This document shows, one piece after another, positions 45,968 to 51,333 of a stretch of 64,000 nucleotides of DNA. The position numbers were made by a program, and so were the translations under genes. Within the stretch, counting starts at the first letter, position 1. Every line of letters begins with the position of its first letter. Source of the stretch: Salinicoccus carnicancri Crm (lineage in GTDB: Bacteria; Bacillota; Bacilli; Staphylococcales; Salinicoccaceae); assembly GCF_000330705.1 (NCBI RefSeq), contig NZ_ANAM01000008.1, forward strand, positions 744,001 to 808,000, read 5' to 3'. Below the pieces are notes generated by a model. The model saw nothing but the letters and a program-made list of their open reading frames with translations, was not told the origin of the DNA and searched no databases.

Positions 45968-47743
45968 ATGTCAGAACAAAAAAGCGGTATTTCCCGCAAA
46001 GTACAGGCGTTCGGCTCATTTCTGAGCAGTATGATCATGCCGAACATCGCAGCCTTTATCGCCTGGGGGCTCATCACAGCCATGTTCATCGACGTCGGCT
46101 GGTTCCCGAACGAAGACCTCGCGACCATGGTCGATCCGATGATCGTCTACCTGCTTCCGCTGCTTATCGCCTACACAGGCGGCAAGCTCATCAGTGACGT
46201 ACGGGGCGGTGTCGTCGGTGCGACGGCCACTATGGGTGTCATTGCGGCATTCCCTGATTCTCCGATGCTGCTCGGTGCCATGGTCATGGGGCCGCTCGGT
46301 GGCTATCTGATGAAACAGGTTGATGCGGTCCTCGTACCAAGAATCCGCCAGGGGCTCGAGATGCTGGTCAATAACTTCTCGGCCGGTTTCCTTGCATTCT
46401 TCCTTGCACTGTTCGGCTACTACGGCCTCGGACCCGTTGTCTCATGGCTCACGCAGTTGCTTGGCAGACTGGTCGATGTAATCGTCGATGCCGGGCTGCT
46501 GCCGATTGCCAGCATCTTCATCGAACCGGCAAAAGTGCTCTTTTTGAACAATGCAATCAACCACGGTGTACTGACACCGCTCGCATCTGAAGAAGTGCGT
46601 GAAGTGGGCCGTTCAATTCTCTTCACACTCGAATCCAACCCCGGTCCAGGGTTCGGTATCCTTCTCGCCTACATGATATTCGGCAAAGGTACCGCCCGCG
46701 CAACTGCACCAGGTGCTGCAATCATCCATTTCGTCGGCGGTATCCATGAGATATACTTCCCGTATATACTGATGAAACCGACACTCGTGGTTGCTGCAAT
46801 ACTCGGCGGTGCGTCAGGTATACTGACATTCTCACTGCTCGACTTCGGACTGTCAGGTCCGGCTGCACCAGGCAGTATCCTTGCTTACATCGCGATGACA
46901 CCACGTGGTGAATATCTGACGATGTTCCTCGGCATACTGGCGGCAACACTTGTTTCTTTCCTTGTCGCTGCAGCAATATTGAAATTCTCCAAACAGAAGG
47001 ACGAAGCGGATCTCGAAGCGGCAACTGCACAGATGGAGGAATCCAAGGGTAAAAAATCCTCTGTCGCCGGCTCCCTGACCAAAACTGAAGACGCAGAAAC
47101 TACTGAAGCGGGGGTCGACTACAAGAACGTCGACAAAATCGTCTTTGCATGCGATGCCGGAATGGGTTCAAGTGCCATGGGCGCAGGCATGCTCAAGAAC
47201 AAGTTTAAAAAAGCAGGTCTTGATATCGAAGTGACCAACTCGGCAATCAACCAGCTCAAAGGTGATGAGGACATCATCATCACGCAGAAAACTCTGACAG
47301 AACGCGCCGAGAACAAAGTTCCGACAGCAAAACACATTTCCGTGGACAACTTCCTCAACAGCCCGAAATACGACGAGCTGCTGGAAGAACTCAAAGAGGA
47401 ACAGGGGCCATCCCAAACGGAAGAGTCCACAGAGAGTGAACCTGCCGGTTTCGATTATTCCAAAGTCGACAAAGTCGTCTTTGCATGTGACGCAGGCATG
47501 GGTTCAAGTGCTATGGGTGCGGGTATGTTAAAGAATAAGTTCAAGAAAGCCGGACTTGATATCAACGTGACGAACTCGGCAATCAACCAGCTCAAAGGTG
47601 ATGAGGACATCATCATCACGCAGAAAACTCTGACAGAACGCGCCGAGAACAAAGTTCCGACAGCAAAACACATTTCTGTGGACAACTTCCTCAACAGCCC
47701 GCATTACGACGAATTGACAGAGGAGCTTAAAAAGCGTCAATAA
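45968..47743 (+). CDS. mtlA: PTS mannitol-specific EIICBB with duplicated EIIB domain
   Basis: Membrane transporter that imports mannitol as mannitol 1-phosphate. The EIIC part (residues 1 to about 340) has the GGIHEIYFPYILMKP signature. Instead of one EIIB, two follow in tandem: residues about 387-470 with the phosphorylation Cys395 in FACDAGMGSSAMG, and about 499-585 with Cys507 in the identical motif, joined by an acidic linker. Total 591 aa, against roughly 480-515 for Gram-positive MtlA. The copies differ by only a few residues (I/V, E/N, K/H). Start ATG at 45968 with AAGGGG 8 nt upstream. First gene of mtlA-mtlR-mtlF-mtlD. Confidence 0.95.
   Translation: MSEQKSGISRKVQAFGSFLSSMIMPNIAAFIAWGLITAMFIDVGWFPNEDLATMVDPMIVYLLPLLIAYTGGKLISDVRGGVVGATATMGVIAAFPDSPMLLGAMVMGPLGGYLMKQVDAVLVPRIRQGLEMLVNNFSAGFLAFFLALFGYYGLGPVVSWLTQLLGRLVDVIVDAGLLPIASIFIEPAKVLFLNNAINHGVLTPLASEEVREVGRSILFTLESNPGPGFGILLAYMIFGKGTARATAPGAAIIHFVGGIHEIYFPYILMKPTLVVAAILGGASGILTFSLLDFGLSGPAAPGSILAYIAMTPRGEYLTMFLGILAATLVSFLVAAAILKFSKQKDEADLEAATAQMEESKGKKSSVAGSLTKTEDAETTEAGVDYKNVDKIVFACDAGMGSSAMGAGMLKNKFKKAGLDIEVTNSAINQLKGDEDIIITQKTLTERAENKVPTAKHISVDNFLNSPKYDELLEELKEEQGPSQTEESTESEPAGFDYSKVDKVVFACDAGMGSSAMGAGMLKNKFKKAGLDINVTNSAINQLKGDEDIIITQKTLTERAENKVPTAKHISVDNFLNSPHYDELTEELKKRQ
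47129..47701 (+). repeat. Tandem duplication of the EIIB coding segment inside mtlA
   Basis: Copy 1 at 47129-47365 and copy 2 at 47465-47701, offset exactly 336 nt (112 codons). The 3' parts (47237-47340 and 47573-47676) are identical over 104 nt, and after one silent mismatch another 24 nt match. The 5' parts (about 108 nt each) differ at many positions, nearly all synonymous. Such uneven divergence suggests recent gene conversion of the 3' half on an older duplication. Confidence 0.93.
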
Positions 47744-47773: not shown

Positions 47774-49789
47774 ATGATCAGTTCTCGCGAAAAGAAAATC
47801 ATCAACGAGCTAATATATCATAATGACACCTTTATGCTTATTAAAGAGCTTGCCGGGAAACTGGGTGTCTCCTCCAGGACTGTCCACAGAGAACTCAAAA
47901 ATGTAAGGGAAACCCTCAGGAAGCTGAACATCGAACTGATCAGCGAATACAAAAAAGGTGTCAAACTGGATCTTGCGCATCTCGAAATCGAAGCACTGAC
48001 AAAATATATAACAGAAAATGCAGACAAGGACCTGAGTGTCGAAGAAAAGAAAGTGGCACTCATCTACAATCTTATGCTCAACCCGGAGGGACTCAAAAAA
48101 AGTGCCCTGGCCGTCGAGCTCGGCGTGGGTGATCATACGGTCGATGAGCTCATCAGCCAGATGGAAGGCGAACTCCGCGCCTTTGGCCTTGAGATCAGGA
48201 AGACGCGCGCAATCGGTGTACAGCTTGCGGGCGACCCTCTCGGCAAACAGAATTTTCTCGCCAGCATGATGATCAGTGAACTGAATTCAAACAGCATCTA
48301 TTCCGTCATTGAAAATAACTTCGTCTTCAGTTCCCTTGTCAACAACAAAATCATCGGCATTCTGGAAGCGGACAATATATTCAAAGTGGAGCGGCTGCTC
48401 ATGGATGAACTCGTCGTCCTCCCCTACACACTCACCGAGAATGCATATCTCAACCTGACGCTCCATATCGTGCTTGCAATCGACCGTACGGAGCATGAAC
48501 AGAATGTTTCCATCAAAGAGGAAATGAAAGAGGAGATGAAGGATTCACAGGAGTTTGAAGTCTCCCGGTCACTGACGGACAGAGTGCAGGATGAATTCGG
48601 CATAAAGTTCCCGGAAGAGGAAGTTTATTTCATAACCATGCACCTTAGAGGAAGCAAAAGGAAGTCCCAGATTGCGCTTGGTCCGGACTCCATCGAGAAT
48701 GTGATCATCGCGTTCATCGACCAGGTCAGCCGCGAGATGGATTATCCGTTCTACGCCTATCCTGAACTGAAGGAAGGCCTGCTGCTTCACATAGAGCCGA
48801 TGCTCCACCGCATGGATTCGGGTATCATCACCGTCAACCCACTTGTCGGGACGATAAAAGAGAGTTATCCCGTCCTGTTTGAAGTCATCGGGGAAAAGTT
48901 CCGCCACTATTTCAACGGCAGGGAGCTGGATGAGTCCGAAATCGGCTTTCTGACAATCCATTTCGGAGGCATCATGCATGCCAATCCGAGGATAGAAGTC
49001 ACCACTGTCTGTTCAAGCGGCATCGGCACCAGCCGGATACTCGCCAACCAGATCAAAACGAAGTTCAACAATCTGTACATCAGGCAGGAACTGTCCATAT
49101 CCGAACTGTCCGACACGAAAACCCATGAGGATGAACTCATTCTCAGCACTGTTCCGCTCGACATGGATGGCTATATACTGGTCAGCCCCCTGCTCGATGA
49201 ACATGATGAGAAGAAAATCACTGAAGCGATATCAAAGATCGGGTCGACGACTTATGACTACAGACCCCCATCCCCCGTATCCGAGCTTTCACACGTCGAT
49301 CCCGACCGGGTCATACAGGCATCCGAGCTCTACCTCAACCGCACATTCACAGAATCGGATACACCCCTCGGGACGATGGATTCCGTCAGGAATGCACTCG
49401 AGGAACATTCCTCTTTGGAAAGCCATGCGGCTCTCGATACCATCCGCCGCCTGGCTGATCGGTTTAAAATAACCGGCCACGTCATAGGGGAAGCCGGTTT
49501 TTCATATCCGCATATCAAGTCGCCCTCCATCCGGAGCCACCAGCTGATCATCGTCCATAATTCAGCCGGGATTACCGACAGGAATTATAAGGGCGATGCT
49601 GTCACCGTGAATTATCAGATCATCCTCCTTGTTCCGGAGGAATCACTAATATCAGATCTGATCAGTGAAATCAGCGTACTCCTGGGTGAGCACCATGAAG
49701 ATATCGGGGCATTGCTTAAAGAGCCATCCCTGATGGATGATCTATTCAAGAATTATATTCAAAACATTTATGTCACAGGAAGGAATTGA
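47774..49789 (+). CDS. mtlR: Mannitol operon activator MtlR (PRD-containing)
   Basis: A 671-aa multidomain regulator: N-terminal helix-turn-helix domains (LAGKLGVSSRTVHRELKNV and a second one near residue 105), two PTS regulation domains (around residues 170-390, with conserved His in LTLHIVLAIDRTEHEQ and FYAYPELKEGLLLHI), an EIIB-like domain with Cys in TTVCSSGIGTSRILA, and a C-terminal EIIA-like domain with GEAGFSYPHIKSPS. Phosphorylation by HPr and the mannitol EIIs sets its activity, linking transport to transcription. Start ATG after AAGGGGTG. Confidence 0.94.
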   Translation: MISSREKKIINELIYHNDTFMLIKELAGKLGVSSRTVHRELKNVRETLRKLNIELISEYKKGVKLDLAHLEIEALTKYITENADKDLSVEEKKVALIYNLMLNPEGLKKSALAVELGVGDHTVDELISQMEGELRAFGLEIRKTRAIGVQLAGDPLGKQNFLASMMISELNSNSIYSVIENNFVFSSLVNNKIIGILEADNIFKVERLLMDELVVLPYTLTENAYLNLTLHIVLAIDRTEHEQNVSIKEEMKEEMKDSQEFEVSRSLTDRVQDEFGIKFPEEEVYFITMHLRGSKRKSQIALGPDSIENVIIAFIDQVSREMDYPFYAYPELKEGLLLHIEPMLHRMDSGIITVNPLVGTIKESYPVLFEVIGEKFRHYFNGRELDESEIGFLTIHFGGIMHANPRIEVTTVCSSGIGTSRILANQIKTKFNNLYIRQELSISELSDTKTHEDELILSTVPLDMDGYILVSPLLDEHDEKKITEAISKIGSTTYDYRPPSPVSELSHVDPDRVIQASELYLNRTFTESDTPLGTMDSVRNALEEHSSLESHAALDTIRRLADRFKITGHVIGEAGFSYPHIKSPSIRSHQLIIVHNSAGITDRNYKGDAVTVNYQIILLVPEESLISDLISEISVLLGEHHEDIGALLKEPSLMDDLFKNYIQNIYVTGRN

Positions 49790-49795
49790 TGAACC

Positions 49796-50221
49796 ATGTT
49801 GAAGAAAGAGAATATCGTACTGAACCAGACTGCAGGATCCAAGGAGGATGTCATCAGACAGGCCGGCCAGCTCCTTGTCGACCAGGGATCTGTGGAGCCT
49901 GCCTATATCGATTCCATGCTCGCACGTGAGGAAGTCGTTTCCACATTCATGGGCAACGGTCTCGCAATACCGCACGGCACGGATGAAGGCAAGACATCCG
50001 TCATCGAAAGCGGCCTTTCCCTGATACAGGTTCCCGGCGGTGTGGATTTCGACGGAAATGAAGCGAAGGTGATCCTTGGCATTGCCGGCAAGGAAAATGA
50101 GCATCTGGACATGCTTCAGAAAATTGCGGTACTGTTCTCTGATGAAGATAATGCAGAGAGAGTCATCAACGCATCTTCCGCTGATGAAATCATCTCACTC
50201 TTTGAAAACGAGGACATATAA
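49796..50221 (+). CDS. mtlF: PTS mannitol-specific EIIA
   Basis: A 141-aa cytoplasmic phosphocarrier that passes phosphate from HPr to the MtlA EIIB domain. The active-site His lies in STFMGNGLAIPHGTDEGK, and AKVILGIAGKENEHLDMLQK is the usual partner helix region (core GIAGKENEHLD). Starts 6 nt after the mtlR stop and ends 2 nt before mtlD, so it is firmly in the operon. One EIIA must serve two EIIB domains here. Confidence 0.95.
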   Translation: MLKKENIVLNQTAGSKEDVIRQAGQLLVDQGSVEPAYIDSMLAREEVVSTFMGNGLAIPHGTDEGKTSVIESGLSLIQVPGGVDFDGNEAKVILGIAGKENEHLDMLQKIAVLFSDEDNAERVINASSADEIISLFENEDI

Positions 50222-50223
50222 TT

Positions 50224-51333
50224 ATGAAGGCAATCCATTTTGGCGCAGGAAACATTGGCAGAGGGTTCATCGGCAAAATATTGCATGATAACGGATATGA
50301 AGTCACTTTCGCAGATGTCAGCAAAGAAATCATAGATGCACTCAACAAGGAGCATGGGTATACTGTGCATATCGCCGAGGAAAACGGTGCTTCCTATGAC
50401 ATCACCGGCGTCAATGGCATTAACACAGCTGAAAATCCCGGGAAGCTGAAACAGGCAATCCTGGAGGCGGATATCATCACAACTGCTGTAGGAGTGAATG
50501 TTCTGCCGATCATCGGCAAAAGCATCGCCCCCCACCTGCCTCGGCGGCTTGAGGACCCGCGCCCGCTCAATATTATCGCATGTGAAAATGCTGTGATGGC
50601 TACAGACACGCTCAAAGAGGCCATCATAGAAGAAACCGGCGTACTGGCGGCGTCGAATATCGGCTTCCCGAACTCGGCAGTGGACCGGATTGTGCCGGTA
50701 CAGAAGAACGAACGCATCCTTGATGTCAAAGTCGAGCCGTTCTATGAATGGGTCATCGAAGAGACAGAGTGGAAGAACAACAAACGTCTTGATGGCCCTG
50801 TCTATGTGCGGGAACTGATGCCCTACATCGAGAGAAAACTGTTCACTGTCAATACAGGCCATGCTGCGATAGCCTATTACGGCAGGACACTCGGTTATGA
50901 TACTGTTTATGAAGCGATGACAGACAGCAAGGTCCAGAACTTCCTGAGCGACGTCCTTTCGGAAACTCTTGAGTACATCACTTCTGTTTACGGCTTTACT
51001 GCCAAAGAACAGAATATCTACATTGAAAAGATCACCGAGCGCTTCACAAATCCTCATCTTTCTGATGACCTCAACCGTGTCGGCCGCGGTATAATGAGAA
51101 AACTCGGCCCGAATGACAGGATCATCAAACCGCTCGTCCATCTTCACAATGAAGGAAAAAGCCACAGGGCATTATCAGAGCTTGTATTATATGCAGTTAA
51201 GTTCGATAATGAGGAAGACCCGGAGCAGGTCGAAATGAATGAAATCATCGCCGAAAAAGGTCTCCTGTATTTCCTGATGGAGTACAGCGGCCTGAAACGC
51301 GATGTCACAGATGAAATCATAAATGCTCTATAG
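50224..51333 (+). CDS. mtlD: Mannitol-1-phosphate 5-dehydrogenase
   Basis: A 369-aa long-chain dehydrogenase that oxidises mannitol 1-phosphate to fructose 6-phosphate with NAD+, feeding glycolysis. The Rossmann start is KAIHFGAGNIGRGFIGKIL, and the catalytic lysine/histidine region reads KLFTVNTGHAAIAYYG as in all MtlD. Full family length. GAGGACATATAATT lies before the ATG; last gene of the mannitol operon. Confidence 0.96.
   Translation: MKAIHFGAGNIGRGFIGKILHDNGYEVTFADVSKEIIDALNKEHGYTVHIAEENGASYDITGVNGINTAENPGKLKQAILEADIITTAVGVNVLPIIGKSIAPHLPRRLEDPRPLNIIACENAVMATDTLKEAIIEETGVLAASNIGFPNSAVDRIVPVQKNERILDVKVEPFYEWVIEETEWKNNKRLDGPVYVRELMPYIERKLFTVNTGHAAIAYYGRTLGYDTVYEAMTDSKVQNFLSDVLSETLEYITSVYGFTAKEQNIYIEKITERFTNPHLSDDLNRVGRGIMRKLGPNDRIIKPLVHLHNEGKSHRALSELVLYAVKFDNEEDPEQVEMNEIIAEKGLLYFLMEYSGLKRDVTDEIINAL

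Follow-up and report, generated by a model that had tools for sequence, protein, structure and literature searches.

Two tandem EIIB domains in the mannitol transporter MtlA of Salinicoccus carnicancri: sequence comparison points to an old duplication and an internal patch of gene conversion

The mannitol transporter MtlA of Salinicoccus carnicancri Crm carries two EIIB domains in tandem, and this locus raises the question of how the second domain arose, why part of it is almost identical to the first, and what a permease might do with two. The window (the whole 64,000-nt stretch that was analysed) contains the mtl locus of a 2.67-Mb genome in the order mtlA, mtlR, mtlF and mtlD, all on the + strand. 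The mtlA ORF (45968..47743) encodes a 591-aa EIIC-EIIB-EIIB protein matching PF02378, PF02302 (two stretches) and TIGR00851. It is followed by mtlR (47774..49789), an ORF for a regulator in which Pfam found two PRDs and to which homology assigns further domains of EIIB-like and EIIA-like kind, with Cys413 and His580 conserved; this domain plan was taken from the available text of PMC3217849. The ORFs of mtlF (49796..50221; PF00359), which encodes a separate EIIA, and mtlD (50224..51333; profile matches), which encodes mannitol-1-phosphate 5-dehydrogenase, complete the set, and an EIIA, MtlR and MtlD thus all lie beside mtlA, as in an mtl cluster.

Pfam search of the MtlA protein found one PTS_EIIC and two PTS_IIB domains and no EIIA; the EIIA_2 domain sits in the separate mtlF. 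The TIGR00851 (mtlA) match of 538.6 bits against a cut-off of 468.4 placed the protein with the mannitol-subfamily EIIC. The EIIC membrane domain (about residues 8–340; 45968..46990) was delimited by profile matches and by helices predicted to residue 340. A flexible linker (46991..47113; pLDDT below 50 at residues 344–346 and 356–383) leads to EIIB copy 1 (47114..47392; active Cys395 at 47150–47152), and an acidic linker of 19 aa (47393..47449; pLDDT below 50 at residues 480–493) leads on to EIIB copy 2 (47450..47728; active Cys507 at 47486–47488), both copies being assigned by Pfam and alignment. The predicted structure showed the same order of EIIC, low-confidence linker, EIIB, low-confidence acidic linker and EIIB (mean pLDDT 71.2, pTM 0.49), and copy 2 matched the solved EIIB-Mtl of E. 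coli, 1vkr (E 2e-28). The active-site loop CDAGMGSSAMGA (the CDAGMG loop) was intact and identical in both EIIBs. Pfam and alignment bore out the original observation of two EIIBs with Cys395 and Cys507 served by a single EIIA, mtlF, in place of the standard MtlA architecture with exactly one EIIB. The residues that differ between the two copies gave no pointer to a specialised function. The NF011663 model (MtlA IICBA) scored the protein at 766.5 against a cut-off of 589, yet no fused EIIA is present. The same model labelled window MtlA and the proteins of loci L020 and L075 "IICBA" above its cut-off, and no EIIA was found by Pfam in any of the three.

Related transporters are built differently. 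MtlA of E. coli is an EIICBA protein with one EIIB and a fused EIIA; window MtlA shares its EIIB sequence family and active site (1vkr) and differs in having two EIIBs and its EIIA apart. In FruA the IIBs lie N-terminal to the IIC and one of them is degenerate, whereas in window MtlA the EIIBs are C-terminal, the IIC is of the mannitol type and both EIIBs are intact, only the lactic acid bacterial form described below being degenerate. The FruA arrangement, IIBs N-terminal to a fructose-type IIC, was thus not found here. According to the available text of PMC2405797 (citing Charbit 1996), FruA transporters have a duplicated IIB, and both IIBs are needed for full activity in E. coli. B. subtilis MtlA and MtlF resemble the window system in EIIC-EIIB order, separate EIIA and a PRD-type MtlR with EII-like domains, as given in the accessible parts of PMC3217849 and PMC6148471; the latter lists B. 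subtilis MtlA as EIICB, while window MtlA has two EIIBs. Judged by titles and abstract beginnings in the open-access literature, no description was found of two EIIBs in MtlA or of intragenic conversion in PTS genes, and the available main text of PMC11792507, on MtlA across bacteria, gave 0 hits for "domain" and "duplicat".

The two copies form direct repeats (47108–47398 and 47444–47734) whose starts are 336 nt apart in the same frame and which are 86% identical; the EIIB domain parts differ at 37 of 279 nt. The longest identical run was 104 nt (47237–47340 against 47573–47676), and it was followed by one mismatch and 24 further identical nucleotides, giving one difference in 129 nt (47237–47365 against 47573–47701). 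By thirds of the domain, nucleotide identity was 0.785, 0.935 and 0.882, and most silent differences fell in the 5' part. Across the 69 silent variable sites, the copies agreed at up to 30 in a row (p about 5e-5; 20,000 permutations). Direct comparison thus confirmed the 104-nt identity, the near-identity over 129 nt and the silent differences of the 5' part. The claim of near-identical 3' halves held for the 129-nt stretch only; the copies diverge again beyond 47365 and 47701, which limits the likeness to a patch inside the domain.

The origin of this patch was examined at 22 diagnostic sites, i.e., positions where copies 1 and 2 differ consistently in two congeneric loci (L002 and L003). In window copy 2, the first 11 sites were of copy-2 type, the next was of neither type, six of the next seven were of copy-1 type and the last three were of copy-2 type; the remaining site of the copy-1-type block carried the letter present in the window's own copy 1. 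From this 22-site pattern, the patch falls between 47530 and 47717 and copy 1 (47237–47365) was its donor, with 47573..47701 as the recipient stretch of copy 2. At the level of sequence comparison, the pattern shows that copy 1 has replaced an inner stretch of copy 2, whose two ends stayed as they were. That the identity stems from constraint on the nucleotides in mid-domain was considered and rejected, the region being only 0.83 identical within L004 and 0.87 within L002.

In the other species of the genus, silent-run permutation gave p of 5e-5 (L006), 0.02 (L005), 0.03 (L007), 0.08 (L008), 0.13 (L009), 0.21 (L002), 0.34 (L004) and 0.36 (L003). After correction for nine tests, only the window species (L001) and L006 stood; in five of the nine species (L002, L003, L004, L008 and L009; p 0.08–0.36) the silent-site tests were weak. 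The conversion idea had been set to fail if both halves of the copies were equally diverged in relatives. That was literally the case in L003 (identity by thirds 0.839, 0.849 and 0.774) and L004 (0.806, 0.796 and 0.817), and in L002 the middle third (0.914) stood out less, without reaching significance (p 0.21); we judge the patch to be specific to the window species and conversion not to be refuted. The patch in L001 was alike within the species and unlike between species, with the recipient ends kept, as in concerted evolution. The domain tree joined the two copies of L009 with 100/100 support, which concerted evolution would predict; it is a tree of 279 nt with most forks open, five of 18 inner branches starred and low support for domains of 93 residues. 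Recurrent concerted evolution in prokaryotic genes, as described in the available text of PMC6053082, likewise leaves paralogous stretches more alike within than between species; the cases given there are whole genes, and the window case concerns two domains of one gene.

Comparison with related species showed that the doubling is no artefact of one assembly. Among 12 genomes of the genus (assemblies only, one per species), nine had two EIIBs, two (G005 and G003) had one, and G010 kept an mtlA remnant of the first 32 codons beside part of mtlD. In the sister genus g4, G023 and G024 had one complete EIIB, G025 was cut by N, G026 had a remnant and two genomes gave no match. In G010 (L143, 5084–5792) and G026 (L147, 2237–2931), the mtl operon has the look of one shortened by a deletion that runs from early in mtlA into mtlD: mtlA residues 1–32 lie beside mtlD from residue 112 in the former, and mtlA residues 2–202, in two pieces, beside mtlD residues 306–366 in the latter.

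In the EIIC tree of the genus with g4 as outgroup, L009 (two EIIBs) branched deepest, and the single-EIIB loci L010 and L011 were nested beside L005–L008. Copy-2 residues H85 and T90 and copy-1 residue L90 were common to L001–L004 and L009, and the g4 singles also had L90. Since these copy-specific residues are shared with the deepest-branching L009, the duplication would predate the diversification of the genus, and the comparison of sequences supports one tandem EIIB duplication before that point. The single EIIBs of L010 and L011 were mosaics of E39 (copy 1 in seven of nine species), V60 (copy 2 of L002–L004) and T90 (copy 2). Such a domain fits the remainder of a recombination between two copies, and we infer an apparent loss in these two species. 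Within the genus, dN/dS was 0.011–0.048 for copy 1 (eight pairs), 0.015–0.071 for copy 2 (seven of eight pairs; one pair identical) and 0.017–0.046 for EIIC, both EIIB copies lying within the range of EIIC. These ratios, computed from the aligned genes, show both copies kept as EIIB domains by purifying selection, and the proposed protein-level constraint on both was thus confirmed.

Outside the genus, a search with the EIIB-EIIB stretch as query found doubled MtlA in 12 of 157 genomes of the window's order: the nine of the genus, G135 and G137 with both domains intact, and G044 with a degenerate second domain. In the order of G206, at least 23 of 299 genomes matched across both halves in one frame; both cysteines were present in 20 of the 20 proteins examined from these matches (all but G731, G660 and G614). 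Among the matches listed, the doubling occurred in all 10 matching genomes of genus g167. In the class, at least 13 of 398 genomes matched both halves in one frame. A set of 183 loci was classified into 41 twins (both cysteines), 46 loci termed B' (only the second EIIB without Cys) and 96 singles; the set was enriched for doubles by choice, so that 87 doubled of 183 is no frequency. These 183 were drawn from 234 loci after leaving out remnants or broken genes (L012, L016, L018, L015, L017, L143 and L147), loci duplicating another stretch, and L144 and L145. Apparent same-genome repeats, recognised by position or by contigs of the same length, were kept (L022/L168, L029/L229, L041/L228, L056/L233 and L126/L231), and 173 of the 183 EIIC sequences were distinct.

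Named twins were Oceanobacillus indicireducens, Priestia abyssalis, an Alkalihalobacillus, Shouchella shacheensis and Staphylococcus simulans; named B' loci came from two Enterococcus, two Lactiplantibacillus, a Ligilactobacillus, a Liquorilactobacillus and a Trichococcus. All other B' loci, except those of G044, came from the order of G372, taken here as Lactobacillales since in the tree its members are interspersed with the named loci; the same order holds five twins (L195–L199). G044 (family f3; L131 and L252) has a B'-type MtlA within the window's own order, and its examined relatives are single-EIIB. This gene was possibly acquired from lactic acid bacteria.

In the EIIC tree of this enriched set (FastTree), 13 changes of the twin state were needed, at least 10 of them forced by supported branches, so that the state has arisen or disappeared on many occasions. 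In the domain tree, the two copies fell together in f74 (97), G552 (95), G890 (95) and the window genus with the singles of its family (96). In f54, copies 1 and copies 2 fell apart, pointing to older, unhomogenised duplications in lineages of that type.

In all 46 B' loci, the first EIIB keeps its Cys and the second has none at the aligned place, so that the loss is confined to the C-terminal copy. The Cys is replaced by His in 24, Tyr in 16 and other residues in six, and the loop around it is rebuilt and conserved: of the 46 domains, 32 have D in the following position, 43 have G at +5, 37 have T at +8 and 45 have M at +9. In 12 of 14 pairs, dN/dS of the B' domain was 0.036–0.291; dS was saturated in the other two. 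A model of one B' domain (L075; pLDDT 79.9) matched EIIB-Mtl structures 1vrv and 1vkr (TM 0.75; E 2.8e-4 and 3.7e-4; 16% identity). Of three B' domains searched with Pfam, two fell below the PTS_IIB cut-off and one had no match. The B' domains clustered in the tree (SH-aLRT 95), but long branches meet there. On these sequences and this one model, B' is a maintained domain with a predicted EIIB fold and a changed active site.

The regulator MtlR was compared across the same classes. In 80 named loci, mtlR was in view in five of five twins, six of seven B' loci and 61 of 68 singles, so that its presence does not separate the classes. In a wider set, which also kept the apparent same-genome repeat L097/L287, an MtlR frame was not found in 15 of 31 B' loci (for 24 B' loci, the downstream side only was covered), eight of 99 singles and none of 10 twins. 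The missing frames speak against B' as a docking domain for MtlR and weaken the MtlR reading of B'. Cys413 in the EIIB-like domain of MtlR was replaced in five of 16 B' loci (L237, L246, L250, L294 and L091) and in none of 102 others, the window included (Fisher p 2.5e-5, relatedness ignored); this is a lead. A link between B' and loss of the PRD1 histidines, suggested by a first look at four of four loci, was rejected, the same loss being found in single and twin loci of the same order. According to the available text of PMC8560693 (citing Bouraoui 2013), MtlR uses its EII domains to tether itself to the membrane by way of the mannitol permease, which its activity requires; Bouraoui 2013, as listed among the references of PMC6148471, carries the EIIB domain of MtlA in its title. 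In B. subtilis, as stated in the available text of PMC3217849, deletion of mtlAF made the promoter constitutive; because of this result, EIIB is not simply required for MtlR activation.

As a whole, the evidence is best explained by an old tandem duplication, purifying selection on both copies, occasional conversion and a second EIIB that is also free for MtlR, a combined account to which we give about even chances. Phospho-MtlF would charge both Cys395 and Cys507. The membrane-proximal EIIB would be the main phosphoryl donor to mannitol in EIIC, and the C-terminal EIIB, on its acidic tether, would serve as a second phosphoryl carrier also free to bind MtlR. Short intragenic gene conversion re-homogenises the copies from time to time, and the C-terminal copy could specialise, as it seems to have done in lactic acid bacteria, where its Cys is lost and the domain is still conserved.

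A plain gain in dosage, in which two phosphocarriers per permease speed up charging by the one MtlF or enlarge the phosphoryl supply that it provides locally, with no regulatory role involved, is a possible reading, if on the doubtful side. The identical active-site loops and the strong purifying selection on both copies agree with it, as does conversion that keeps the copies alike, which would be expected if sameness were favoured; the two species of the genus that apparently dropped one copy do not. Because 46 of the 87 doubled proteins keep a second copy without Cys, a benefit in rate, one of the two roles originally suggested, is not the general reason for a second EIIB, though it may apply to the twins.

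An unlikely alternative is that the repeat is neutral or weakly deleterious and comes and goes by recombination, selection on copy 2 then reflecting avoidance of misfolding or of phosphoryl diversion. Under it, the frequent state changes on the EIIC tree of the enriched set (13, at least 10 forced) and the apparent loss in L010 and L011 would be expected; the doubling is kept, however, in nine of the 11 genomes of the genus in which an MtlA EIIB survives and in all 10 g167 genomes among the matches listed, and dN/dS of both copies lies in the EIIC range.

Tandem direct repeats can recombine, and the mosaic singles of L010 and L011 show what such an event could leave, but that the near-identity stems from recent expansion or contraction of the repeat by unequal exchange is very improbable: window copy 2 keeps copy-2 letters at both outer ends with the copy-1 match inside, which would need a second exchange. 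Pure expansion or contraction was thus rejected for the window species by the internal patch. Of the two histories originally proposed, the older duplication with partial conversion is supported by the copy-specific residues and the internal patch; simple expansion and contraction misfits the window species, though contraction fits the two single-EIIB species. Repeats are a known assembly hazard and can mislead assembly, yet an artefact or false repeat was rejected as having next to no likelihood, with the 37 differences in 279 nt and the same architecture in eight other assemblies of the genus (G002 as a single contig) and, overall, in 41 of the 183 classified loci.

Beyond the combined account of duplication, selection and conversion, we tentatively suggest, with more doubt than confidence, that doubled MtlA has in its C-terminal EIIB a dedicated module for sensing or docking, one that has arisen repeatedly by domain duplication. 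It would still be phosphorylatable and partly maintained by conversion in the window genus and other Bacilli; in lactic acid bacteria it would be fixed in a changed state, in which the conserved [HY]-D-x-x-x-G-[ST]-A-T-M-[GA] loop may take phosphate on its histidine or bind it non-covalently. If so, one protein would divide transport and operon control between its two EIIBs. The EIIB of MtlA is reported, in the available texts of PMC6148471 and PMC8560693, to have two jobs, passing phosphate to mannitol and tethering or controlling MtlR, and point mutants of a permease with two EIIBs offer a natural way to pull these apart. The repeated change of state and the loss of Cys from the C-terminal copy only (46 of 46 in this set) suggest a rule governing which of the domains is free to specialise. 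Gain at the scale of a domain, conversion of a patch and apparent loss all occur within the 12 species of this one genus, which makes it a compact case.
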